This document shows positions 12,469 through 38,293 of a DNA stretch of 64,000 nt, piece by piece (the first letter of the stretch is position 1; each line of letters begins with the position of its first letter). This DNA is from Chloroflexota bacterium (lineage in GTDB: Bacteria > Chloroflexota > UBA11872): positions 186,001 through 250,000 of the forward strand of contig JAPOYR010000013.1 in NCBI GenBank assembly GCA_026706485.1. Reading direction: 5' to 3'. The translations under genes were made by a program, and so were the position numbers. The notes beneath the pieces are model-generated. The model did not search any database, was not told the DNA's origin, and saw only the letters and a list, made by a program, of their open reading frames with translations.

Positions 12469-14979
12469 GTGAGCACGACGACGCTGACACCGCTACGGCG
12501 CCAATACCTTGACATAAAACGCCAGCACCCCGAAGCGCTCCTGTTCTTCCGCCTCGGCGACTTCTACGAGCTGTTCGACCATGACGCCGAGGTCGCGGCC
12601 GAAGAGCTGCAAATCGTGCTCACCTCGCGCGAGTTCGGTCGCAGCGGACGCTCGCCCATGTGCGGCGTGCCCCACCACGCCGTCGCGGGCTACATCGCCA
12701 GGCTGGTCGAGGCCGGGCATCGCGTGGCGGTGTGCGACCAGGTCACCGCCGCCGGCAACGGCCTGGTGGATCGCGCGGTCACCCGGGTGATCACGCCGGG
12801 CACGGTGGTCGACGAGGACATGCTGCGACCGCAGGCAAACAACTACCTCGCGGCCGTCGTGCGCGAGGGAGACCGCGCCGGATTCGCCTACACCGATGTC
12901 ACGACCGGGGAGTTCGCCGCCACCGAGATGCGAATCGATCAACTCGATCCGGAGCTGAGCCGGGTCTCGCCGCGCGAGACGCTGGCATTCGGCGACATCG
13001 ACCTGTCGGGCGCCGTGACGGGCGCCGAGTGGATGGCCGATCCCGCCACGGCGGAGGAGGCGTTGCGCCGACATTTCGCGGTCCAGGACCTTGACGGATT
13101 CGGTCTCACCGATCGTCCGCTGGCGTCGCGCGCCGCGGGGGCGCTGCTCGCCTACGTCATCGAGACGGACGCAAACGCGCTGCACGTGCTGACCGGCCTA
13201 CACGTCTACGGCGTCGCGACCTACATGGAGCTTGACCCCGCCACCCGGGCGAACCTGGAGCTCGAATCCGGAGGGCGAGCCGCGCGCCGCGACCACAGCC
13301 TGCTGGGTGTGCTCGATCACACCCGAACCCCGATGGGCGCCCGGCAATTGCGGCGACACGTCGCCCGGCCGTCGCTCGAACGCAACGTCATCGAGCGGCG
13401 CTTGGACCGCGTCGAGGCGCTCGTCGACGACGCCGACCGCCGAGCCGAGCTGCGCGACGCCCTGAAGTCCGTCGGCGACCTGGAGCGGCTGGCCAACCGC
13501 TTGCTGCGGCGCACGGCGAACGTCAACGACGTCCGCCGCGTCGCCACCGCGCTCGACGGCCTCGCGTCGGTTCGCCAGACCCTCGACGCAGCCGCCGGGG
13601 CGCTCGAGCACCTTCACGACCGCATCGACACCTGCGACGAGGCTCAAGGGTTGATTGCGCGAGCCATCGACGACGGCGAGCGCACCATCCGCGCCGGATA
13701 CAGCGACGAGCTGGACCGGCTGGCGGCCGGCGCCGGCTCAGCCAAAGCCTGGATCGCCGCGCTGGAGACGCAGGAGCGCGAGCGCCTGGGCATCAGGTCG
13801 CTCAAAGTCCGCTTCAACCGCGTGTTCGGCTACTACATCGAGCTCGGCCGCGCCTATGCGGACCGGGTGCCGGACCACTACGAGCGCCGCCAGACGCTCG
13901 CCAACGCCGAGCGCTACGTAATCCCGGAGCTCAAAGAACGCGAGGCGGAGGTCCTCAACGCCCAGGAGCAGATCGAAGCCCTCGAAGCCCTCCTGTTCGA
14001 GGAAGTGGTGGAACGTCTCGCCGGATGGGCGCCCGCCATGCTCGAGTCATCGGCGGCCATCGCCGCGCTCGACGTCGCCGCCTCGCTGGCTGAGGTGGCC
14101 GTGCTCCAGGGCTACGCGCGACCGACGCTCACCGACGAGGGCCGCATCGAGATCGAAGCCGGTCGCCACCCGGTCGTCGAGGCCAGCCAGACCGAGCCCT
14201 TCGTGCCCAACGACACGCGGCTCGATCCCGACGATCGGCAAGTCCTGGTGCTCACCGGTCCCAACATGGCCGGCAAGTCCACCTATCTGCGGCAGACGGC
14301 GCTGATCGTGCTGCTGGCCCAGATCGGAAGCTTCGTGCCGGCCGACCGCGCCGAGGTCAGCCTCGTGGACCGCATCTTCACGCGCGCCGGCGCCCGCGAC
14401 GACCTCGCGGCCGGCGCCAGCACCTTCATGGTGGAGATGCTGGAGCTGGCCGCCATCCTGGCCCAGGCCACGCCCCGCAGCCTGTTGATTCTGGATGAAA
14501 TCGGCCGCGGCACGAGCACCTACGACGGAATCTCCGTCGCGCAGGCGGTCGTCGAACACTTGCACCATCACCCGCGCCTGCGCGCCAAGACGATCTTCGC
14601 CACGCACTACCACGAGTTGACGGCGGTGGCCGACCTGTTGCCGCGCGTGCACAACGCCAACGTTGCCGTCGCCGAGCAGGGCGAGCGGGTCGTGTTTCTC
14701 CGCCGCATCGTGGACGGCCCGGCGGACCGCAGCTACGGCGTGCAGGTGGCCCAGCTTGCCGGACTGCCGCCGGCCGTAATCCGGCGCGCGCGCGAGATTC
14801 TGGTCGAGCTCGAACGGCTGGCGGCAGGAAGCAAGTTCGTCCCGAACGTCCAGCTCACGCTGCTGACGCCGGAGGAGCATCCCGTCGTCAAGCGCTTGCG
14901 CGATCTGGATCCCGAGCAGTTGAGCCCGTTGGACGCGCTGAGCCTGATCTACGAGCTGCGCAACGACGCCGACGCATGA
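12469..14979 (+). CDS. mutS: DNA mismatch repair protein MutS
   Basis: Recognises mismatches and small loops and clamps on DNA as an ATPase dimer. The mismatch wedge motif is in FFRLGDFYELFDHD (residues near 30), the Walker A is GPNMAGKSTYLRQ, and Walker B/signature LLILDEIGRGTSTYDGIS; there is a C-terminal helix-turn-helix region. The start is GTG 12469 (836 aa, family length); longer upstream readings lack homology. It overlaps mutL by 4 nt. The sequence at 12509-12517 (TTGACATAA, encoding LDI) uses an ATA codon unlike its neighbours; see the dispersed-motif finding. Confidence 0.96.
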   Translation: MSTTTLTPLRRQYLDIKRQHPEALLFFRLGDFYELFDHDAEVAAEELQIVLTSREFGRSGRSPMCGVPHHAVAGYIARLVEAGHRVAVCDQVTAAGNGLVDRAVTRVITPGTVVDEDMLRPQANNYLAAVVREGDRAGFAYTDVTTGEFAATEMRIDQLDPELSRVSPRETLAFGDIDLSGAVTGAEWMADPATAEEALRRHFAVQDLDGFGLTDRPLASRAAGALLAYVIETDANALHVLTGLHVYGVATYMELDPATRANLELESGGRAARRDHSLLGVLDHTRTPMGARQLRRHVARPSLERNVIERRLDRVEALVDDADRRAELRDALKSVGDLERLANRLLRRTANVNDVRRVATALDGLASVRQTLDAAAGALEHLHDRIDTCDEAQGLIARAIDDGERTIRAGYSDELDRLAAGAGSAKAWIAALETQERERLGIRSLKVRFNRVFGYYIELGRAYADRVPDHYERRQTLANAERYVIPELKEREAEVLNAQEQIEALEALLFEEVVERLAGWAPAMLESSAAIAALDVAASLAEVAVLQGYARPTLTDEGRIEIEAGRHPVVEASQTEPFVPNDTRLDPDDRQVLVLTGPNMAGKSTYLRQTALIVLLAQIGSFVPADRAEVSLVDRIFTRAGARDDLAAGASTFMVEMLELAAILAQATPRSLLILDEIGRGTSTYDGISVAQAVVEHLHHHPRLRAKTIFATHYHELTAVADLLPRVHNANVAVAEQGERVVFLRRIVDGPADRSYGVQVAQLAGLPPAVIRRAREILVELERLAAGSKFVPNVQLTLLTPEEHPVVKRLRDLDPEQLSPLDALSLIYELRNDADA
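12509..12517 (+). repeat. TTKACATAA motif, copy 1 (plus orientation)
   Basis: TTGACATAA inside the start of mutS, encoding Leu-Asp-Ile with the rare codon ATA. First of nine dispersed copies. Confidence 0.5.
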
Positions 14980-20683: not shown

Positions 20684-21730
20684 CTATGCCGCGGTGGCGG
20701 CCGCGCCCACGGCAACAGCGGGCGCCAGTGCGGGAACCGGAATCGGCCGCGGCAGCTCCAGTCCGGAGCCCTCCACGATGCGCGGCACGGCCTTCTCCCA
20801 GTCGATCGCCATCACGTGCACGCCGTGCACGCCCTCGATCTCGCGCACCTGCTCGATGATCTCCAGGCAGATGCGGATGCCCTCGGCGCGCGGCTTGCGG
20901 GCGCCGCGCATGCGCTGCATCACGTCGTCCGGCACTTCCATGCCCGCGACCTTGAACTTCATGAATTCGGCCATCCGAGCCGACTTTAGCGGCCCCACCC
21001 CCGCCAGAATGTGAACTTTTTCGTCAATACCCTCATCGCGAATACGCGACATCCACTCGGCAAACCGTTCCACGTTGAAAATCATCTGCGTCAGCGCGAA
21101 TTCCTGCCCTGCGGCGGCCTTCTTGACCATGCGCAGCGGACGGAAGCCATAGGGCGGAGCAAAGGGGTTGGCCGCGCCGCCGATGAACAGGCGGAAGTCG
21201 CCCTTGATCGGGTCGCCCGCGGCAGTGCGATTCTCATCCCGGAGCTGCTGCAACAAGCGCACGAGTTGCACACCTTGCAGGTCGAAGACCGGCTTGGCCA
21301 TGGGGTGGTCGCCCAGGACCAGCGAGTCCCCGCTGATTGACATAAAATTGCGAATGCCAAACGCCTGCGCCGCAATCACATCTGATTGGATGCCCAGCCG
21401 ATTCCGGTCGCGGCAGGAGAGCTGCATGATCGGCTCGACGCCGCCCTGCAGGCAGAGCAGCGCCGCGCCCCAATGCGACATCTTGAGCGCCGCCCCCTGG
21501 TTGTCGGTGCAACTGGCGGCGTCCACGAAGCCGCGCAGGATCTCGGCCTTCGCCCGGACGTCCGCCGCATCCGGTCCCTTGGGCGGCCCGAGCTCACAGG
21601 TGACCGCAAAATGGCCGGCGTCGAGCACGGCCTGCAAATGGCTGTATGGCGGCCCCGGTGCGGGGCCGTCGACGGGTGGTGAATCAGACACCGAAAGCGG
21701 TTGTCCCAGCAGCCGGAAAATGTTCGTCAT
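20684..21730 (-). CDS. metF: Methylenetetrahydrofolate reductase
   Basis: FAD-dependent TIM-barrel reductase interconverting methylene- and methyl-THF. The catalytic Glu is in VTCELGPPKG; SISGDS and QMIFN are family motifs. 348 aa, with an Ala/Pro-rich C-terminal end. It resembles the C1-pathway type (as in acetogens) more than E. coli MetF. It is first in a three-gene minus-strand operon, metF-fchA-folD, and divergent from miaA with about 50 nt between starts. ATG 21730 chosen; a later GTG is possible. Confidence 0.9.
   Translation of the reverse strand: MTNIFRLLGQPLSVSDSPPVDGPAPGPPYSHLQAVLDAGHFAVTCELGPPKGPDAADVRAKAEILRGFVDAASCTDNQGAALKMSHWGAALLCLQGGVEPIMQLSCRDRNRLGIQSDVIAAQAFGIRNFMSISGDSLVLGDHPMAKPVFDLQGVQLVRLLQQLRDENRTAAGDPIKGDFRLFIGGAANPFAPPYGFRPLRMVKKAAAGQEFALTQMIFNVERFAEWMSRIRDEGIDEKVHILAGVGPLKSARMAEFMKFKVAGMEVPDDVMQRMRGARKPRAEGIRICLEIIEQVREIEGVHGVHVMAIDWEKAVPRIVEGSGLELPRPIPVPALAPAVAVGAAATAA
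21337..21345 (+). repeat. TTKACATAA motif, copy 2 (plus orientation)
   Basis: TTGACATAA on the plus strand within metF (which is encoded on the minus strand), in a local run of AT-rich codons (AAT TTT ATG TCA ATC). Confidence 0.5.
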
Positions 21731-21781: not shown

Positions 21782-22681
21782 ATGCTCGTAGTGCTGACAG
21801 GGCCGACGGCGTCGGGCAAGACGGCCGCGGCGCTCGCGCTGGCCGACGACTTCCCGGTGGAGGTCATATCCGCCGATTCGCGCCAGGTCTATCGCGGCAT
21901 GGACGTCGGCACGGCCAAGCCCACGGCCCCTGAGCGAGCCCGAGTCCCGCACCATTTGATTGACATAATCGATCCACCCGAAGCCTACAGCGCCCACCGC
22001 TTCGTCCGAGACGCGCACCGCGCACTCGACGACATTCGCGGCCGCGGGCGAGTGCCGGTAGTCGTCGGCGGCACCGGCTTCTACATCAAGGCGCTCGTCG
22101 AGGCGTCGCTGCTGGCCGACGTTCCGCCCGACGCCGAGCTTCGACACGACCTCGACGCGCTGCAGGCTCGCGAAGGCGTGGACGGCCTGGCGGCGCGACT
22201 GGAGCGTTTGGACCCCGCACGGGCCGCCACCATCGACCGTGCGAACCCGCGCCGCCTCGTTCGCGCCATCGAGGTCGCCGAACGCGGCGGGTCGGCGGAT
22301 GACTCTCGGCCAGCGCCATCCAGCGCGATCTTCGGCATCGATGTCCCGGTGGACGTCCTCGCAACCCGCATCGAGCGACGCGTGCACGCCATGTACGCCG
22401 GCGGACTGATCGAGGAGACGCGCGCCCTGCTGGAGCGCGGCGTTCCGCCAGACGCCCCCGCGCTCACCGGCGTGGGCTATCGCGAAGCCGCAACTGTACT
22501 TGACGGGAGTCTCACGCTCGACGACGCCCGACAGCGAACGGCCAGCCGCACGCGCCAATACGCGCGCCGCCAACGCACCTGGTTTCGCCACCAGCTTCCC
22601 GTACACTGGCGTACTCCAGAGACAATCGTGGAGGCGCTCGCCGCGCAGTTGCGCGGCATGAATCAAGCGGGGCAGTCCTGA
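21782..22681 (+). CDS. miaA: tRNA dimethylallyltransferase
   Basis: Adds a dimethylallyl group to A37 of tRNAs reading U-starting codons, using DMAPP from the MEP pathway. P-loop TGPTASGKT, then SADSRQVYRGMDVGTAKPT and VVGGTGFYIKAL. ATG 21782 follows GAGGTGA with a 5-nt spacer; GTG 21773 is within that SD and is less likely. 299 aa. It precedes dapF by one nt. Confidence 0.95.
   Translation: MLVVLTGPTASGKTAAALALADDFPVEVISADSRQVYRGMDVGTAKPTAPERARVPHHLIDIIDPPEAYSAHRFVRDAHRALDDIRGRGRVPVVVGGTGFYIKALVEASLLADVPPDAELRHDLDALQAREGVDGLAARLERLDPARAATIDRANPRRLVRAIEVAERGGSADDSRPAPSSAIFGIDVPVDVLATRIERRVHAMYAGGLIEETRALLERGVPPDAPALTGVGYREAATVLDGSLTLDDARQRTASRTRQYARRQRTWFRHQLPVHWRTPETIVEALAAQLRGMNQAGQS
21960..21968 (+). 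repeat. TTKACATAA motif, copy 3 (plus orientation)
   Basis: TTGACATAA inside miaA in the codons TTG ATT GAC ATA ATC, again with rare ATA. Confidence 0.5.
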
Positions 22682-24769: not shown

Positions 24770-25999
24770 GTGGGCATCGACGGGCTCGCGTCGCTGGGCG
24801 ATTGGCCGGCCGAAACCTCGCTGGATGAGCTGGCCCGATTGGTCGACACGGCCGGAGCATCGGTGGCCGGACGCCGCTGCGTCAGAATTCGCGAGCCCAA
24901 TCCCGCCACGCTGATCGGTCAAGGCCAGCTGCGAGACTCCATCGAGGCTAGCCGCGCCGCCGATGCCAACGTCCTGGTGCTCGACGCCGAGCTGCTCCCG
25001 CGCCAGCAGCGAAACATCGAGCGTGCCTTCGAGGGCAAGGTGCTCGACCGCACCGGCGTGATCCTGGACATCTTCGCCGCCCGCGCGCAGACCGCCGAAG
25101 GCCGCCTGCAAGTCGAGCGCGCCCAGCTCGAATACCTGCTGCCGCGCCTATCCGAGCTGTGGGTCCAATTCTCCCGCCAGCGGGGCGGCATCGGGCCCTT
25201 CCGAGGTCCGGGCGAGACCCAAATCGAGACCGACCGGCGGCTCTATCGCGACCACATTCGCGACATCGACACCCGGTTGAAGCGCGTGCGCGAGCAGCGC
25301 GGCAGCCGCCGGCGCCGCCGGCGCGACGCCGGCCTCAACGTCGCCGCGCTTGTGGGCTACACCAACGCCGGCAAGAGCTCGCTGCTCAACGCGCTCACCG
25401 ACGCCGCGGTGCTCACTGAAAACCGGCTGTTTGCCACCCTCGATCCGACCACGCGGCGCCTGCAGCTGCCGCAGGGCGGGGAACTTTTGCTCACGGATAC
25501 GGTTGGGTTCATTCAACGGCTGCCGCCGCGGCTCGTGGACGCCTTTCGCGCCACGCTCGAAGAGGTGCTCGAAGCGCAGTTTCTGGTCCACGTCGTGGAC
25601 GCGGCGTCGCCCGACATGCTGCGGCAGGTTGGGGAAGTGGAACGCACGCTGAGCGAGATTGGCGTGAGCGCGCGGCCGGTGATCACCGCCCTCAACAAGA
25701 GCGACCTGGCCCCGGACGTGGACATCGCCGACTTTCCCAACGCGGTGCGCGTCTCCGCGCTGACCGGGCAGGGATTGGACGAGCTGCGCGACCGGCTCGG
25801 CGAGGCGGCGCGCGCGTCGAGCGTGAACCTGACCGTGCGCATCCCCTACGCCGACAGCGAGCTGGTGAGCCTGTTTCATCGCCGCGGCGCGGTTGTGCGC
25901 GAGGCGCATGAACCGGACGGGACCCGGATCGAAGGCACGTTGCCCGCGGCCTTGGCCGGTCGCTATGACCACTACCGCGTCGAGGCCGAGCGCCCATGA
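24770..25999 (+). CDS. hflX: Ribosome-associated GTPase HflX
   Basis: Splits stalled or hibernating ribosomes. N-terminal domain with NPATLIGQGQ and LDRTGVILDIFA, middle GGIGPFRGPGETQIETDRR, G1 GYTNAGKSSL, G3 DTVGF, G4 NKSD, 409 aa. The residues encoded directly upstream of GTG 24770 (ERAFL) continue the normal HflX N-terminal strand, but there is no ATG, GTG, TTG or CTG in frame for more than 100 nt. The true start may be non-canonical, or GTG 24770 may give a slightly shortened protein. Confidence 0.93.
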   Translation: MGIDGLASLGDWPAETSLDELARLVDTAGASVAGRRCVRIREPNPATLIGQGQLRDSIEASRAADANVLVLDAELLPRQQRNIERAFEGKVLDRTGVILDIFAARAQTAEGRLQVERAQLEYLLPRLSELWVQFSRQRGGIGPFRGPGETQIETDRRLYRDHIRDIDTRLKRVREQRGSRRRRRRDAGLNVAALVGYTNAGKSSLLNALTDAAVLTENRLFATLDPTTRRLQLPQGGELLLTDTVGFIQRLPPRLVDAFRATLEEVLEAQFLVHVVDAASPDMLRQVGEVERTLSEIGVSARPVITALNKSDLAPDVDIADFPNAVRVSALTGQGLDELRDRLGEAARASSVNLTVRIPYADSELVSLFHRRGAVVREAHEPDGTRIEGTLPAALAGRYDHYRVEAERP

Positions 26000-27330
26000 C
26001 CACGCCCGGCCGAATCCGGATCGGCGTCGCGAGTGGAGACATCACCCCCAGCGTGGGCGTTGACCTGTCGGGCTTCAGCCCGCGCATGGGATCTGCTCTC
26101 GGCGTGCGGAACCCGCTCGAGTTGCACGTCCTGGCGGCCTCCAGCGGCGGCTCGACCGTCATGCTCGCGGCGTTCGACCTGGTCGGGCTCACGCCGGCGT
26201 GGATCGAGCGGACTCGCGAGCGCGTCGGCGCGGCGACGGGGATACCGGGCGTTAGTCAGATGTATGCCTGCACCCACGGGCACGGGGGACCGGAAACCGG
26301 CGTGCTGCCCACCATGGGCGATCCGGACGACGACTATCTCGACGAGCTGGCGGCGACAACCGTAGCCGTGGCCCAAGCAGCCCTGGAGCGGCAAATCCGC
26401 GCGGAGCTCGTCATCGGATTCGGAACCTCGTTCGCCGGCGTCAACCGCCGCTCGCGGGAGGTGGCCCCGGACGGCCCCGGTGACGGAGGGCCCGACGACA
26501 TCGACCCAACACTCATTGCGGCGCAGGCGCGCGATGGCGACGGCCGGCCCGTCGCCACGCTGGTGAACTACGGCTGCCACCCCACCAGCAGCCGCGAGCG
26601 AATCTTCTCCGCCGACTATCCGGGCCACCTGCGCCGTCGCGTGCAGCTGATCACCGGCGCGCCGTGCATCTTCGTCAATGGCGCCGGCGCAAATGCGAAT
26701 CTGCGCTTCGCGGACCCCCGAGCGCGCGGCTATGGCGAGGCACGCGGCCATGGCCATGCACTCGCCCTGACGGCGGTCCGGTCCCTCCAGGCCGCGCGGC
26801 CATCAGCCTCGGCCACGGTCGCCGCATCAACTCATCCGGCGACGCTGGAACACACCGACTTGCCAAGCCCGACCGAGGCCCGTGCGATGCGGACGGCGGG
26901 CGTGGCGCACGTCGAAGCCGCGACCAGCGACGTGATGCGTCGTCACTACCGGGCCTACGAGGTCGAGCATGCCGACCGCGTGCTCGCCGCCCAGGACGAT
27001 CCGGCGTGGACCGGCCAGCAGGAGATCGAGCTCCAGACGCTGCGAATCGGCGATCTGGCCGCGGTTGCCACGCCGGTGGAGCTGTTCGCCGCGGACGGGC
27101 AGGCCATTCGGGCCGGCTCACCGGCGCCGGCAACCATCGTGGCCGGCTGGAGCAACGGCAATTGGGGGTACCTGCCCACGCGCCGCGTGGCCGCGCACGG
27201 CGGCTACGAAGCCGAAACGGCCCATCCCTGGTACCAGCAGCCGGCGGCCTGGACACCGGAAAGCGGCGACGCGCTGCGCACGGCGGCGCAGGCGTCGCTC
27301 GCGGAGCTCTTCGGGGAAGCGTTGCCCTAG
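25996..27330 (+). CDS. Neutral/alkaline ceramidase N-terminal domain-like protein
   Basis: 444 aa, resembling the neutral/alkaline non-lysosomal ceramidase family: ASGDITPSVGVDLSGF at the start, CTHGHGGPETG (zinc-binding His pair), NYGCHPT and FSADYPGHLRR. Family members hydrolyse N-acyl bonds of ceramide, but many bacterial ones are of unknown substrate. No signal peptide is seen, unlike secreted ceramidases, and the C-terminal Ig-like domain is absent. It overlaps hflX by 4 nt, a context that suggests co-translation but no shared function. Ends just before the tandem repeat element. Confidence 0.7.
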   Translation: MTTPGRIRIGVASGDITPSVGVDLSGFSPRMGSALGVRNPLELHVLAASSGGSTVMLAAFDLVGLTPAWIERTRERVGAATGIPGVSQMYACTHGHGGPETGVLPTMGDPDDDYLDELAATTVAVAQAALERQIRAELVIGFGTSFAGVNRRSREVAPDGPGDGGPDDIDPTLIAAQARDGDGRPVATLVNYGCHPTSSRERIFSADYPGHLRRRVQLITGAPCIFVNGAGANANLRFADPRARGYGEARGHGHALALTAVRSLQAARPSASATVAASTHPATLEHTDLPSPTEARAMRTAGVAHVEAATSDVMRRHYRAYEVEHADRVLAAQDDPAWTGQQEIELQTLRIGDLAAVATPVELFAADGQAIRAGSPAPATIVAGWSNGNWGYLPTRRVAAHGGYEAETAHPWYQQPAAWTPESGDALRTAAQASLAELFGEALP

Positions 27331-27341
27331 TCCTTGAGCCA

Positions 27342-27441
27342 CGCCCCAATCCGTTCGCCCTGAGCTTGTCGAAGGGTCGCCCTGAGCTTGTCGAAGGGTC
27401 GCCCTGAGCTTGTCGAAGGGGCTGCAGAACGGATTGGGGCG
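27342..27441. repeat. Three tandem 22-bp repeats inside a 15-bp inverted repeat
   Basis: The arms CGCCCCAATCCGTTC (27342-27356) and its exact complement (27427-27441) bracket three identical 22-bp units (27355-27376, 27377-27398, 27399-27420; core CCCTGAGCTTGTCGAAGGG). The unit is a widespread REP-like word. It lies between the ceramidase-like gene and the convergent recombinase gene, and the outer stem could act as a bidirectional terminator. Confidence 0.8.
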
Positions 27442-27478: not shown

Positions 27479-28507
27479 CTAGCGCCTCAACTCCTCGGGC
27501 GACCGACGTCGGCGCCGCGCGCGCGCGGAGGCCTCGTCCGCCGGCACGCTGAACCGATCGAAGACCTCGCGCAGATGCGCCGTTTCGTAGTGGGCGTAAA
27601 TCCGCTTGGTCGTATCCGGCGAGGCGTGACCCAGGATGTCCTGCACGTGCGACAGATTCGCGCCGCGATTGAGCAGCGAAGTGGCCTTCAGGTGACGGAA
27701 GCCGTGGGTCGTGGCCGTCACTCCGACCGCCGCCCCGTAGCGCTTGACGATCTTCCAGACCGACTGCGGCGATAGGCGGAGGCGTTCGCCGCCGCGGCCG
27801 GGATCGCGCGGCGCGCCGCGGTGGCGGATGAAGAGCGGCACATACGCGTCGCGTCGCAGCCCCAGGTAAGCGCGCATGGCCTCTCGTGCGTCGTCATCAA
27901 AGAAGACCACCCGCTCGCGCCGGCCCTTACCGGTGATCAGGGCCTGCTGGGCGTGCCCGTCGTCAACGTCCCGGCGATCGAGTCGCGCCACCTCCGCGCG
28001 CCGCATGCCGGTGCCATAGAGCACCTGCAGCAGGGCGCGGTCGCGGGCGAAGCGGAGGCGCGTCTCCTCGCCGGCGTCGGCTGGAATCAGCGCGGGCAGC
28101 TCGTTCTTGACATAATCAACAATGATTGCCAGCGCGTCGTCCACCCGCGGCGTGCGATAGCGCGGAGCCGACCGCACGCCGTGGAGGCGCTCCACGGCGC
28201 GCTCGATGGACAGCGTCGTCAGCGATCCTTCGCGCAGGCAATGCCTCAGGAACGCGCGGGTGGCGGCCACATAGGTCTGGATGGTCGCCTCGCGCTCGGG
28301 CCCAAGCTCGTCGGCCAGCGCCAGATAGAACCCCTCGAGCGCGCCGTCGTCCAGGCGGTCCAGCGTGATCTCCTCGGCTCCGGACGCCTGGCGCGCCCAC
28401 GCCATAAAGCGACGCAGCCCGGTGGCATAGGTGCTCCGCGTGCGCGGAGATTTCGCCCGCAGGCTGTCGAAGAAGCGCTCGGAGGCGGCGTGCAGCGTTC
28501 GATCCAT
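27479..28507 (-). CDS. Xer-like tyrosine recombinase
   Basis: Site-specific recombinase of 342 aa with a SAM-like N-terminal DNA-binding domain (about 5-115) and catalytic domain. Catalytic set visible: R169 in GTGMRRAEVARLD, K194 in GKGRRERVV, H268/R271 in THGFRH, H294 in LGHASPDTT, Tyr304 in RIYAHY. No phage or plasmid genes flank it. The start ATG 28507 is 7 nt after a good -10 box, so the mRNA would be leaderless. Its promoter overlaps an inverted pair of XerD-arm-like sequences (28517-28543). It could be a chromosomal XerC/XerD/XerS equivalent or a dedicated invertase. The Arg-rich tail (329-342) is unusual. Confidence 0.88.
   Translation of the reverse strand: MDRTLHAASERFFDSLRAKSPRTRSTYATGLRRFMAWARQASGAEEITLDRLDDGALEGFYLALADELGPEREATIQTYVAATRAFLRHCLREGSLTTLSIERAVERLHGVRSAPRYRTPRVDDALAIIVDYVKNELPALIPADAGEETRLRFARDRALLQVLYGTGMRRAEVARLDRRDVDDGHAQQALITGKGRRERVVFFDDDAREAMRAYLGLRRDAYVPLFIRHRGAPRDPGRGGERLRLSPQSVWKIVKRYGAAVGVTATTHGFRHLKATSLLNRGANLSHVQDILGHASPDTTKRIYAHYETAHLREVFDRFSVPADEASARARRRRRSPEELRR
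28107..28115 (+). repeat. TTKACATAA motif, copy 4 (plus orientation)
   Basis: TTGACATAA on the plus strand inside the recombinase gene, which reads Asp-Tyr-Val-Lys there with AT-rich codons (GAT TAT GTC AAG). Confidence 0.5.
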
Positions 28508-28514
28508 GGCATTG

Positions 28515-28543
28515 ACTTTACATAACACTGCCGCTGATGTCAA
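28515..28543 (-). promoter_or_regulatory. Putative sigma-70 promoter of the recombinase gene (leaderless)
   Basis: On the minus strand TTGACA (28543-28538), a 17-nt spacer and TAAAGT (28520-28515), then 7 nt to ATG 28507. Transcription would start at or next to the start codon. The same bases form the inverted half-sites TTTACATAA and TGATGTCAA, so a protein bound there would block the promoter. Confidence 0.5.
28516..28543 (+). repeat. dif-like site A (inverted XerD-type half-sites), motif copy 5
   Basis: TTTACATAA (28517-28525) and TGATGTCAA (28535-28543) are inverted halves separated by 9 nt. TTTACATAA is identical to the XerD arm of Bacillus-type dif. The outer 12 bp, CTTTACATAACA (28516-28527), recurs in inverse orientation at 29777-29788. 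Located directly upstream of the recombinase start codon. Confidence 0.5.
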
Positions 28544-28585
28544 ACCGCGGCAGAGAATTCCGGACGGGCAGGCCAACCGGGTTCC

Positions 28586-28675
28586 GTCATTCCGGCGGAA
28601 GCCGGAATCCAGTCCGGTTGCTGCGGGGCGTCCGAGGAATGCCGGATCCTGGACCCCGGCCTTCGCCGGGGTGAC
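28586..28675. repeat. REP-like composite palindromic repeat
   Basis: Two hairpins, 28586-28612 (CATTCCGGCGGAAGCCGGAA) and 28649-28675 (CCCCGGCCTTCGCCGGGG), bracket about 36 nt. The outer ends GTCAT/GTGAC and CCAG/CTGG mirror each other. This layout matches a repeat class seen in many GC-rich bacterial genomes. Nothing else is seen in the 285-nt gap between the recombinase and HD genes apart from the promoter. Confidence 0.7.
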
Positions 28676-28792
28676 GAGCTAGAGCTCGAGCGAGGGGGAC
28701 GACGCCGCTCACTCATTCCGGTGGAGGTCGAAGTGTCGACCAGACCAATCTGATGCGTGGCAAGGTCCCAATTCGACCCGGGCCCCGCGCGA

Positions 28793-29377
28793 TCAGGCGT
28801 CCTCGAGCAATCCTCCGGCCTCCGCCGCCCGCCAAAACGCGTAGTCGGCGTGATGGACGATGGTGTTCTCCAGGCTGCGCTCGACGAGCTCGCCCTCGCC
28901 GGAGTGGGCGCCCGCCATGTGCGCCACCTCTTCCGGCAGCCCCACCGTCAGGCAGATGTGTACGCCGTAAGCCGGGTGGCGAATCGACGGACGGCCGGCC
29001 TTCCGGGGCGACGCTTGCCAGCGCGCCTGGTTCTCGGGGTCGAATTCCCACGGCTTGCCCACGTCATGACACAGCGCGCCGGCAATCAGCAAGTCGCGAT
29101 CTACGTGAAGCTCGGGAAACTGCCGCTGCAGCTCGTCCCCAATCACGATGGCCAGTTGGGTCACGCCGCGAATGTGGTCGGCCTGGGTGCCGTCGATGAG
29201 CGTCGGCATTCCCGGGTTCCCGGACGCCGGGATGTCGGCGATGGCGTCGAAGCTGCTCCGGTCCAGCGCTGCGGCCCACGCCTCGACGACCTTCTCACGC
29301 AATTCCGTGTCGACGATCTCGGCGACTTGCGGCAGCTCGTGCCTCACGCGCTCGCGCTGCTGATCGGTATTCGACAT
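28793..29377 (-). CDS. HD-domain phosphohydrolase-like protein
   Basis: 194 aa with the HD metal motif CHDVGKPWEF (residues near 105), a preceding His in DHIRGV, and later HPAYGVH and IVHHADYA. HD proteins hydrolyse phosphoester bonds of nucleotides or similar; the substrate is unknown. ATG 29377 is preceded by GGGGAGGA. It lies alone between the recombinase and the enolase-superfamily gene, and inside the segment bracketed by the two dif-like sites. The 30-bp palindrome is about 95 nt upstream of its start. Confidence 0.75.
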   Translation of the reverse strand: MSNTDQQRERVRHELPQVAEIVDTELREKVVEAWAAALDRSSFDAIADIPASGNPGMPTLIDGTQADHIRGVTQLAIVIGDELQRQFPELHVDRDLLIAGALCHDVGKPWEFDPENQARWQASPRKAGRPSIRHPAYGVHICLTVGLPEEVAHMAGAHSGEGELVERSLENTIVHHADYAFWRAAEAGGLLEDA

Positions 29378-29470
29378 GGCGTCCTCCCCAGGCGTCGGCG
29401 ACCGATTCAGTGTGCCCCAGTCCGAAAGCACCCTGCGAGCGCCCGACGCACTCTCGTGCGCGCCGATAGA

Positions 29471-29500
29471 TAGTAGAACTAATACGCATTAGTTCTACTA
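29471..29500. promoter_or_regulatory. Perfect 13-bp-arm palindrome, candidate operator
   Basis: Arms TAGTAGAACTAAT (29471-29483) and ATTAGTTCTACTA (29488-29500) with a 4-nt spacer ACGC. In the minus direction it lies upstream of the HD gene and contains TAGAAC and TACTAT spaced like promoter boxes, so a dimeric repressor could bind there. It also contains the TAG stop of the upstream remnant. No regulator gene is adjacent. The cognate protein is unknown. Confidence 0.6.
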
Positions 29501-29698
29501 ATGCCGATCAAGAGCGAGCGGCTCCGCGAGCTGCCGCCCGGTCACGGGCACACAGCAGGCGTTGCACGGACCATCGACATCAGACGGGCGAAAAAGCCCC
29601 GCAAGTCCACCACGGCGGCGCGTCACGACCTCAGCGCCACTTCTCGCGATCGACCGCATTTTCCGCGAAAGGCTCGCACAGCCGCCCGCGTCGGCCAT
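29498..29698 (-). pseudogene. Possible remnant of a CxxCC zinc/iron-chelating (YkgJ-like) protein
   Basis: A 66-residue minus-strand frame ending at the TAG inside the palindrome. Residues 44-66 contain PCNACCVPVTGRQLAEP, whose Cys spacing and R-x-L-x-x-P pattern resemble the N-terminus of the YkgJ-like zinc/iron-chelating family (CxxCC followed by RELxKP). The remaining Cys ligands are missing. The upstream part is Arg-rich and not recognised. It may be a chance match or a gene cut by insertion of the palindrome. Confidence 0.25.
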
Positions 29699-29763
29699 GC
29701 GCCGCAGGCCGCCATCCCTTCGAGCGCCGCTTCAGTCCACCCCAGCTGGCACCGCGACACGTC

Positions 29764-29788
29764 ACGACATCATAATTGTTATGTAAAG
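29764..29788 (-). repeat. dif-like site B, motif copy 6 (minus orientation)
   Basis: On the minus strand TTTACATAA (29787-29779), a 6-nt spacer CAATTA, then TGATGTCGT (29772-29764). The 6-nt centre equals that of canonical dif sites. The 12 bp TGTTATGTAAAG (29777-29788) is the exact inverse of site A. Compared with E. coli dif, the XerD arm is well kept and the XerC arm poorly. Confidence 0.45.
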
Positions 29789-32825: not shown

Positions 32826-34277
32826 CTAGCCGGCGGGAGTCCAGTTCACGTCCGGCGAGCGGTTGGCCGTCACTTCGTCCAGCCGGCGAGTGGGCGCGGT
32901 CATCGGCGCGGCGTGCAGCATCTCCGGATTCGACTCGGCCTCCTGGGCCACGTTGATCAGGGCCTCCGCGAATTGGTCCAGCGACTCGATCGACTCGGTC
33001 TCCGTCGGCTCGATCATCAGCGCCTCGTCGACGATCAGCGGGAAATACACCGTGGGCGGATGCACGCCGTAGTCGATGAGCCGCTTGGCGATGTCGGTGG
33101 TGCGTACGCCCAGCGCCCGCTGCCGCGTACCCGCCAGCACCACCTCGTGCATGCAAATGCGGTCATAGGGGATGTCGAAGTGCGGCGCCAGTCGCGCGCG
33201 CAGATAGTTCGCGTGAAGCACCGCGTCATCGGCCACCTCGCGCATGCCGTCCCGCCCCAGGCTGCGAATGTAGGTATAGCCTCGAATCAGGTTGCCGACG
33301 TTGCCGACGTGCGAGTGCACCCGGCCGATGCTGTCGGGACCCGCCGGCTCGAGCGCATAGCCCGCATCGCGTTGGACGATCTGCGGACCCGGCAGAAACG
33401 GCGCCAGATGCGCCTGAACACCCAGCGCTCCGGCCCCGGGCCCACCGCCGCCGTGGGGCGTGGTGAATGTTTTATGTAAATTCAAATGCATCACGTCGAT
33501 GCCCAGATCGCCCGGACGCACCCGGCCCAGCATCGCGTTCATGTTGGCGCCGTCGCCGTACACCTGCCCGCCGGCCGCATGCACGCGCCGCGTGACCTCC
33601 AGAATTCGCTGTTCGAACAGGCCAAGCGTGGTCGGCAGGGTGAGCATCAGGGCCGCCACGTCGTCGTTGAGCTTGGCGTCCAGCTCGTCCAGGTCGATGT
33701 TTCCGTCCGGCGCCGTGCCCAGGGGCCTGACCCGCATCCCGGTCATTGTGGCCGTGGCGGGATTCGTGCCATGCGCCGAGTCGGGCACCAGCACGGTCGT
33801 CCGCCGCTCGCCGCGACTGCGCATCCAGGCCTGGATGCAGAGCAGTCCCACCATCTCGCCCTGCGATCCCGCCGCGGGCTGCGTGGTGACCGTGGCGAAG
33901 CCCGCAATCTCAGCCAGCAGGGCCTCCAAATGGTGAATGAGCGCCAGCAGCCCTTGCACCGATCCCTCGGGCTGGTAGGGGTGCGGCTCGACCAGTCCCG
34001 GAAGACGGGCTGTCACCTCGTTGATCTTGGGGTTGTATTTCATCGTGCAGGAGCCCAGCGGATATATCGCCGTGTCGATGCTGTGATTGCGCTGCGAGAG
34101 GCGCACGAAGTGGCGCATCACGTCGATTTCCGAGACCTCCGGCAAATCGAGCGCCTCGCGAACCTGGCCCTCGGGCAGCACCGCTGTCGGATCGACGGCG
34201 TCGAACTGTGGCAGGGGCGGTCGCACGCCGGGCCGGCCGGGACTGGCCAGCTCGAAGATCAGCGGCTCGCTAGCCAC
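32826..34277 (-). CDS. gcvPB: Glycine dehydrogenase (decarboxylating) subunit 2
   Basis: PLP-binding half of the two-subunit P-protein of the glycine cleavage system. PLP Lys is in NLHKTFTTPHGGGGPG; also PLGSCTMKYNPKIN and DSAHGTNPATA. GTG 34277 gives VASEPLIFELASPGR, like family N-termini, and overlaps gcvPA by 8 nt; ATG 34298 would add seven residues. The NLHK codons are AAT TTA CAT AAA, including the very rare TTA, creating motif copy 7. Last gene of gcvH-gcvPA-gcvPB. Confidence 0.94.
   Translation of the reverse strand: MASEPLIFELASPGRPGVRPPLPQFDAVDPTAVLPEGQVREALDLPEVSEIDVMRHFVRLSQRNHSIDTAIYPLGSCTMKYNPKINEVTARLPGLVEPHPYQPEGSVQGLLALIHHLEALLAEIAGFATVTTQPAAGSQGEMVGLLCIQAWMRSRGERRTTVLVPDSAHGTNPATATMTGMRVRPLGTAPDGNIDLDELDAKLNDDVAALMLTLPTTLGLFEQRILEVTRRVHAAGGQVYGDGANMNAMLGRVRPGDLGIDVMHLNLHKTFTTPHGGGGPGAGALGVQAHLAPFLPGPQIVQRDAGYALEPAGPDSIGRVHSHVGNVGNLIRGYTYIRSLGRDGMREVADDAVLHANYLRARLAPHFDIPYDRICMHEVVLAGTRQRALGVRTTDIAKRLIDYGVHPPTVYFPLIVDEALMIEPTETESIESLDQFAEALINVAQEAESNPEMLHAAPMTAPTRRLDEVTANRSPDVNWTPAG
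33472..33480 (-). repeat. TTKACATAA motif, copy 7 (minus orientation)
   Basis: TTTACATAA on the minus strand at the PLP-lysine codons of gcvPB, with rare TTA (Leu), AAA and ACA codons next to it. Confidence 0.5.
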
Positions 34278-36124: not shown

Positions 36125-37399
36125 ATGACAGTGCCCCGGTCGTGCACGGTCGTCTTTGTCGGCGCCGGCAACCCCGCTGCCATGTCGCAAAAGGCCCGTC
36201 GGGCAATCCGCGAGGCCGACGCGCTGGTCGCCTGGATCGAGCCATGTGCTGGGCTGGTGGATCGTCCACTGGTGCGGCTCGAGACGCCGTCGCACCAATC
36301 GTGGGAATCACTGCTGCTTGGTCTGGGAGCGGGCGACGTGACCTACCTGGCCCCTGGCTATGGACCCGACGACGATCCCGGAGCGGCCATCGTTTCGGAA
36401 GTCCTGGCGGATGCCGGCTTCGAGGTCGAAGTGTTGAGTCTGGACGGACCTCAGGCGGCTGGACCGGCGACGATCGGACCGGCGGCCCAAGCGTGGCTAC
36501 CCGACCCGGCGCTGGCGGCATTAGTGCGGGGCATTCGCGATGCGGCCGAGCTCGAACGCTGGCGTCAGACGATTGCACAGGAGTTCGGCCAGGACACCCA
36601 ACTCCGCGTGCGTCCGTGGAATTCAACCGCCTGGCAGGACCTCGACGATCAACCGGCAGACTTCCCCTTGACGCTGCACGCGGAGCCTTCCGAGGCGTCG
36701 CGTGAGCGTTCGGTCGCTCGTCTCCGCAGGGTCTTCGAAACGCTGCGGGGACCCGAGGGCTGTCCGTGGGACCGCGCCCAAACCCACGCCTCGCTGCGCA
36801 AGTATGTCCTGGAGGAGGCCGCGGAAGTCGTCGACGCCATTGACGACGGCGAGCCGGCTGACCTCGCGGGCGAGCTTGGCGACCTCCTGGCCAACATCGT
36901 GTTGCACGCGGAAATCGCGCGCCAGGAGGAAAACTTCACCTGGCCGGATGTCGTCCAGGGCATCACCGCCAAGATGGTGCGCCGCCATCCACACGTCTTC
37001 GGCGAGCAGACCGCGCACCAGATATCCGAGGTTGCCGCCATCTGGCAAGACGCCAAGCGCGCCGAATCCGGGCGAGACGGCAGGGCGACCGGTGACGGAG
37101 CGCTGCCCGCGCTGGCGCAGGCGGCCAAGCTTGCCGCCAGCCTGGATGGCAGCCCGTCACCGGACGGTTTGCCACCGGGCGCCGCGGCTGCGCTTCGCTG
37201 GTATCGAGATTCGGAACCTGCCCCCGACGATGCCCGCGCCGGCGACGCGCTGCTCGGCCTGGCGCTTGCCGCCAGGCGCGTGGGGATCGACCCCGAGCTG
37301 GCACTCCGCGACGCGCTGCGGCGGCTTCACTCGCGGCTCGCGGCCGCCGAGTCGACGCAGGCCGACGGTTCGTCGACTGAGAATACTTATGTCAAATAG
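36125..37399 (+). CDS. mazG: MazG-type NTP pyrophosphohydrolase with reduced N-terminal methylase-like domain
   Basis: Hydrolyses NTPs/dNTPs to monophosphates for house-cleaning or alarmone control. The MazG core has CPWDRAQTHASLRKY, the metal helix LEEAAEVVDAI and LGDLLANIVLHAEIA (about residues 215-300), followed by a helical extension. Residues 1-120 (VVFVGAGNPAAMS, YLAPGYGPDD) look like a shortened tetrapyrrole-methylase domain as in YabN-type fusions, but lack its full length. 424 aa. The last codons contain motif copy 8. Confidence 0.88.
   Translation: MTVPRSCTVVFVGAGNPAAMSQKARRAIREADALVAWIEPCAGLVDRPLVRLETPSHQSWESLLLGLGAGDVTYLAPGYGPDDDPGAAIVSEVLADAGFEVEVLSLDGPQAAGPATIGPAAQAWLPDPALAALVRGIRDAAELERWRQTIAQEFGQDTQLRVRPWNSTAWQDLDDQPADFPLTLHAEPSEASRERSVARLRRVFETLRGPEGCPWDRAQTHASLRKYVLEEAAEVVDAIDDGEPADLAGELGDLLANIVLHAEIARQEENFTWPDVVQGITAKMVRRHPHVFGEQTAHQISEVAAIWQDAKRAESGRDGRATGDGALPALAQAAKLAASLDGSPSPDGLPPGAAAALRWYRDSEPAPDDARAGDALLGLALAARRVGIDPELALRDALRRLHSRLAAAESTQADGSSTENTYVK
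37387..37395 (-). repeat. TTKACATAA motif, copy 8 (minus orientation)
   Basis: TTGACATAA on the minus strand across the final Thr-Tyr-Val-Lys codons of mazG. Confidence 0.5.
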
Positions 37400-38284: not shown

Positions 38285-38293
38285 TTATGTCAA
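38285..38293 (-). repeat. TTKACATAA motif, copy 9 (minus orientation)
   Basis: TTGACATAA on the minus strand in the 58-nt gap before the M50 protease gene; the only copy besides sites A and B that is outside coding sequence. Confidence 0.5.

Follow-up and report, generated by a model that had tools for sequence, protein, structure and literature searches.

In an uncultivated member of the Chloroflexota, two exact 12-bp inverted repeats bracket a 1.25-kb segment next to a gene for a tyrosine recombinase. What is this arrangement for? The locus lies in a stretch of 64,000 nucleotides (hereafter the window; positions 186,001 to 250,000 of contig JAPOYR010000013.1, assembly GCA_026706485.1), and the first-pass annotation offered two readings of it: an inversion switch, or a pair of Xer-type sites of which one is dif.

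The inverted repeats and the segment between them

The repeats are present as claimed. Read directly in the window, CTTTACATAACA stands at 28516-28527 on the forward strand and its exact inverse at 29777-29788; these are the only exact copies of the 12-mer in the 3.37-Mb genome, and the window holds 4 copies with up to two mismatches (0.25 expected). The partner half-sites that were described with them also exist, at gaps of 9 and 6 nt from a 10-bp core, CTTTACATAA, or 7 and 4 nt when counted from the 12-mer, and they are only loosely kept in relatives. The segment contains the REP-like element, the HD gene (with a Pfam HD match) and the perfect palindrome reported for it, and there is no evidence at 29.5-29.77 kb of the gene remnant that was also reported. 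A REP-like unit, TTCGCCCTGAGCTTGTCGAAGGG, occurs in tandem at 27358-27420, after the gene at 25996-27330.

The part of the repeats that is conserved in relatives is the 9-10-bp core rather than the 12-mer, and the final CA common to both repeats looks like chance. The left-hand motif copy (TTTACATAA, 28517-28525, plus strand) is kept in all 6 genomes of the genus. The left repeat is overlapped by a conserved, sigma-70-like promoter of the recombinase gene (TTGACA-N17-TAAAGT, 28515-28543, minus strand), which ends 7 nt before the ATG at 28507, itself 8 nt off the repeat. The right-hand copy (TTTACATAA, 29779-29787, minus strand) directly follows the stop codon of a neighbouring gene of the enolase superfamily; G003, G004 and G005 keep the core of this copy, with diverged flanks. 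That the repeats are merely the promoter was considered and dropped, as in other lineages the motif is found near the recombinase gene at different positions and also on the opposite strand.

Exact inverted repeats around 1.25 kb beside a tyrosine recombinase speak for an invertible, phase-variable segment that controls the HD gene. However, the comparison of orientation among relatives that the annotation proposed as a check found the HD-gene segment in one and the same orientation, in a collinear region, in the five same-genus relatives compared. A single orientation in deep read data and in all relatives had been named as an outcome that would speak against the switch, and its second half is what these relatives show. 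Further, the right-hand copy is absent near the recombinase gene in G002, and both repeats belong to a motif of fixed polarity that is found across the chromosome. An inversion switch is therefore very improbable.

A candidate dif beside a divergent Xer

The recombinase gene, xer (27479-28507, minus strand), encodes a divergent Xer-type tyrosine recombinase of 342 aa (Pfam Phage_integrase, 5.5e-31). The XerC, XerD and XerA models match its product far below their cut-offs, the XerS model gives 80 bits against a cut-off of 267, and the match to the XerH structure reaches only 33 bits. Orthologs are present in all same-genus genomes searched and in nearly all family genomes, with more distant orthologs in most of the order and class. 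Three of the orthologs (L067, L068 and L072, from G037, G034 and G038, respectively) have one in-frame TAG in each open frame. Elsewhere the genome encodes a second Xer, canonical and XerD-like, which scores 295.8 bits with the XerD model (cut-off 329.6) and lies above the cut-off for the general subfamily.

Between the repeats, at 29471-29500, stands the perfect palindrome TAGTAGAACTAA-TACGCA-TTAGTTCTACTA (12-6-12), which first surfaced through the same unbiased count of words shared near xer that is reported below for the motif. In the form TAGTAGAACTAA-N6-TTAGTTCTACTA it occurs exactly once in each of 17 among the 19 family genomes, the exceptions being G016, which is incomplete, and G010, which has a diverged symmetric copy. 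Counting the latter, 17 genomes have the palindrome upstream of xer at a distance of 0.43-1.13 kb, and it adjoins the same xer gene wherever both share one contig (in G001 they are on different contigs). Its arms vary in pairs: 96% of cells are paired, four pairs are changed on both sides, and none of 500 shuffles and no slid version attains the covariation score. L062, a relative in the same order but a different family, carries TACTAGATATAA-N6-TTATATCTAGTA upstream of its xer.

In size (30 bp, where Xer sites span about 28-31 bp), symmetry, length of the centre, copy number and gene linkage this palindrome agrees with a dif and, judged by its sequence, is likely to be that of this Chloroflexota lineage; the paired arm changes and the flip of motif polarity described below also mark it as the candidate. 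In a large published dif survey, three Dehalococcoides genomes were the only Chloroflexota named (PMC3025954). Linkage of dif to the recombinase gene is a possible hallmark of single-recombinase systems (PMC5357621), and the symmetric arms suggest that one recombinase acts here, though the genome also encodes the XerD-like protein; a 'single recombinase' system is therefore unproven. The asymmetric centre of the palindrome (29483-29488 in the window) is flipped relative to xer between G000, G005, G017 and G018 on the one hand and G003, G004, G002 and G007 on the other (TGCGTA vs TACGCA, TGTGTA vs TACACA), with the sequence outside the palindrome unflipped.

The suggestion that one of the 12-bp sites is dif thus had the place right and the sequence wrong: the palindrome between the repeats, single-copy and linked to xer, fits instead, and once it appeared either repeat was dropped as dif. 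The broader expectation of an Xer-like recombinase with a dif-like site alongside, as in streptococcal XerS, was borne out. Like XerS/difSL of streptococci and lactococci and XerH/difH of epsilonproteobacteria, the locus combines a recombinase gene with a single adjacent inverted-repeat dif-like site and a protein of about 340-360 aa. In contrast to these systems, its dif is a near-perfect 12-6-12 palindrome, whereas difSL has an 11-bp centre and unequal arms; in addition, the xer product is not close by sequence and a second Xer is present. By analogy, the dif-linked Xer may work like XerS and XerH, and we do not class it as a member of either group.

A polar motif that flips at the palindrome

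Copies of a polar motif point to dif from either side, and the two 12-bp repeats stand innermost among them. A motif scan of the window located nine copies, all directed toward dif. On the plus strand, the left repeat is preceded by TTGACATAA at 12509-12517, 21337-21345, 21960-21968 and, inside xer, 28107-28115; on the minus strand, the right repeat is followed by TTTACATAA at 33472-33480 and by TTGACATAA at 37387-37395 and 38285-38293. All 21 copies on the 344-kb contig to which the window belongs point the same way. Five genomes were scanned around dif for CTTTACATAA with up to one mismatch, and 43 of the 44 copies are directed toward the site; for the sharpened motif, TTNACATAA, 65 copies point toward dif and none away in 1.8 Mb from three genomes. 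TTNACATAA ranks first among polar 9-mers in an unbiased ranking, and single substitutions at positions other than its free one leave at most a handful of copies. Near dif, G000 and G018 carry about one motif copy per 15 kb.

The closed relative G006 (OY282448.1) extends this pattern to a whole chromosome, over which 35 of 35 copies of CTTNACATAA point to dif. The motif flips between 2,440,745 and 2,442,916, with dif at 2,442,546, and a second time at some point within 0.117-0.865 Mb, where dnaA and three DnaA boxes lie at 0.80 Mb. In G006 the GC skew also reaches its minimum within 1.5 kb of dif (region 2.36-2.52 Mb). However, in G018 (C1) and G000 (C13) the skew passes through dif with no switch while the motif flips, and therefore base composition does not explain the polarity of the motif. 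GC skew does not mark the terminus reliably in this family and was given no weight, and gene-strand bias was set aside as too weak.

The motif is shared beyond the genus. In G020, from another family, all five exact copies on the xer contig are directed toward dif; G019 is a counter-example, with two distant copies of TTATGTAAAG on the xer contig pointing the wrong way. Family genomes carry 3-10 copies of TTATGTAAAG (0-1 for the backwards control), and nearly all have one or two of these within 4 kb of xer. In the unbiased count of 10-mers within 1.5 kb of xer, TTATGTAAAG is shared by the most lineages, 9 of 13, whereas AT-rich 10-mers other than its shifted versions reach 3 lineages and shuffles 2-3. 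In G046 its single copy in the whole genome lies 0.7 kb from xer.

In family f4, several genomes without a close ortholog of the window's xer (G025, G027 and G031) have two TTATGTAAAG copies that face the same way at a spacing of about 3.8 kb. In genus g2, an insert of 1.9-2.8 kb lies between a racemase-like gene and dif at L108, L110, L111 and L115 and is absent in G012 and G015; its open reading frames presumably resemble a DUF2089-type regulator and a repetitive partner. Cassette capture between direct motif copies, with G012 and G015 as empty sites, was dropped as an explanation, because copies of a polar motif that lie on the same side of dif should be direct repeats in any case.

What reads the motif

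Read backwards, TTNACATAA becomes TTATGTNAA and then equals, even at its free position, the XerD arm found in classical dif sites. Arms equal to it are found in E. coli (TTATGTTAA), B. subtilis (TTATGTAAA), Frankia (TTATGTCAA) and Bordetella (TTATGTAAAG). According to the account of Karaboja 2021 given in PMC10945525, SMC is unloaded at the terminus in Bacillus by XerD bound to its sites. Because of this function in Bacillus, the identity with the XerD arm and the presence of a XerD-like Xer in the genome, the likeliest reader of the motif would be the second, XerD-like recombinase, which we place ahead of FtsK. The B. subtilis XerD SMC-unloading sites (XDS), as that account describes them, likewise carry a XerD-type word at places dispersed through the terminus half, apart from dif; compared with them, the motif here is strictly polar and is spread far along both arms.

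The same dif module could be combined with a different reader, if TTNACATAA were the KOPS of this lineage, bound by FtsK-gamma and steering FtsK toward dif. FtsK-gamma was found in 14 of 14 genomes, and the motif shares with KOPS/AIMS, which FtsK-gamma reads, its short length, its direction toward dif, its flip at dif and its greater density nearby. Its polarity, gradient and density are KOPS-like (cf. PMC5357621), the density resembling that of E. coli KOPS. The gamma helix reads IGRSKAQKLAMQLE in G000 and IGYNRAARIIEQME in E. coli, with the altered positions aligned to R1300 and E1303, both of which are needed for KOPS reading (PMC2680272), and an altered helix would fit an altered motif. 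However, the same word stands near xer where the gamma helix is canonical, e.g. in G046, G040 and G058, and, unlike KOPS/AIMS, the motif is an AT-rich 9-mer that matches the XerD arm TTATGTNAA exactly, down to the free position, with no wrongly oriented copy seen. To our knowledge, the KOPS so far described are G-rich or A-rich 7-8-mers that are >90% polar near dif and not exceptionless. FtsK as the reader is thus unlikely, but it is the main rival of the XerD-like Xer.

Alternatively, TTNACATAA may be the Ter site of a replication fork trap, at which a bound protein halts forks from one side only. The lack of any wrongly oriented copy in 1.8 Mb is as expected if a reversed site blocked replication, and the innermost motif pair does bracket dif. 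Against this stand the motif copies that reach far along both arms, and Tus and RTP are, as far as we know, confined to relatives of E. coli and Bacillus. A fork trap is the third option, weaker than both the XerD-like Xer and FtsK, and we consider it improbable.

Proposed role of the locus

Taken as a whole, the locus is probably one of dimer resolution, in which the dif-linked Xer acts at the palindrome and polar half-sites of the XerD type guide the handling of the chromosome at the terminus. The Xer encoded at 27479-28507 would recombine the adjacent palindromic dif (29471-29500) and convert dimeric chromosomes to monomers at the terminus, as with XerS/difSL and XerH/difH. From both chromosome arms TTNACATAA points at this site; the second, XerD-like Xer would bind it as a directional half-site marker and, once bound, may unload SMC close to the terminus, like XerD in Bacillus. 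Tentatively, we suggest a division of labour between the two Xers: the divergent, dif-linked one might resolve dimers at a new palindromic dif, and the ancestral XerD might read the polar half-sites along both arms as a new one-way signpost (e.g. for SMC unloading) that is intolerant of reversed copies. The kind of system is already known; what is new is the combination of a symmetric dif with an array of XerD-arm half-sites that has no reversed copy in the sequence examined.

The probable terminus and dimer-resolution site of an uncultivated member of the Chloroflexota are hereby located, with a motif that is identical to the XerD arm and whose polarity is exceptionless over a whole closed chromosome. 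Which of the three orders the terminus in this lineage, XerD half-sites, FtsK or a fork trap, can now be put to a concrete test. The motif also provides a simple marker of origin-terminus axes and an assembly check in metagenome-assembled genomes with a misleading GC skew.
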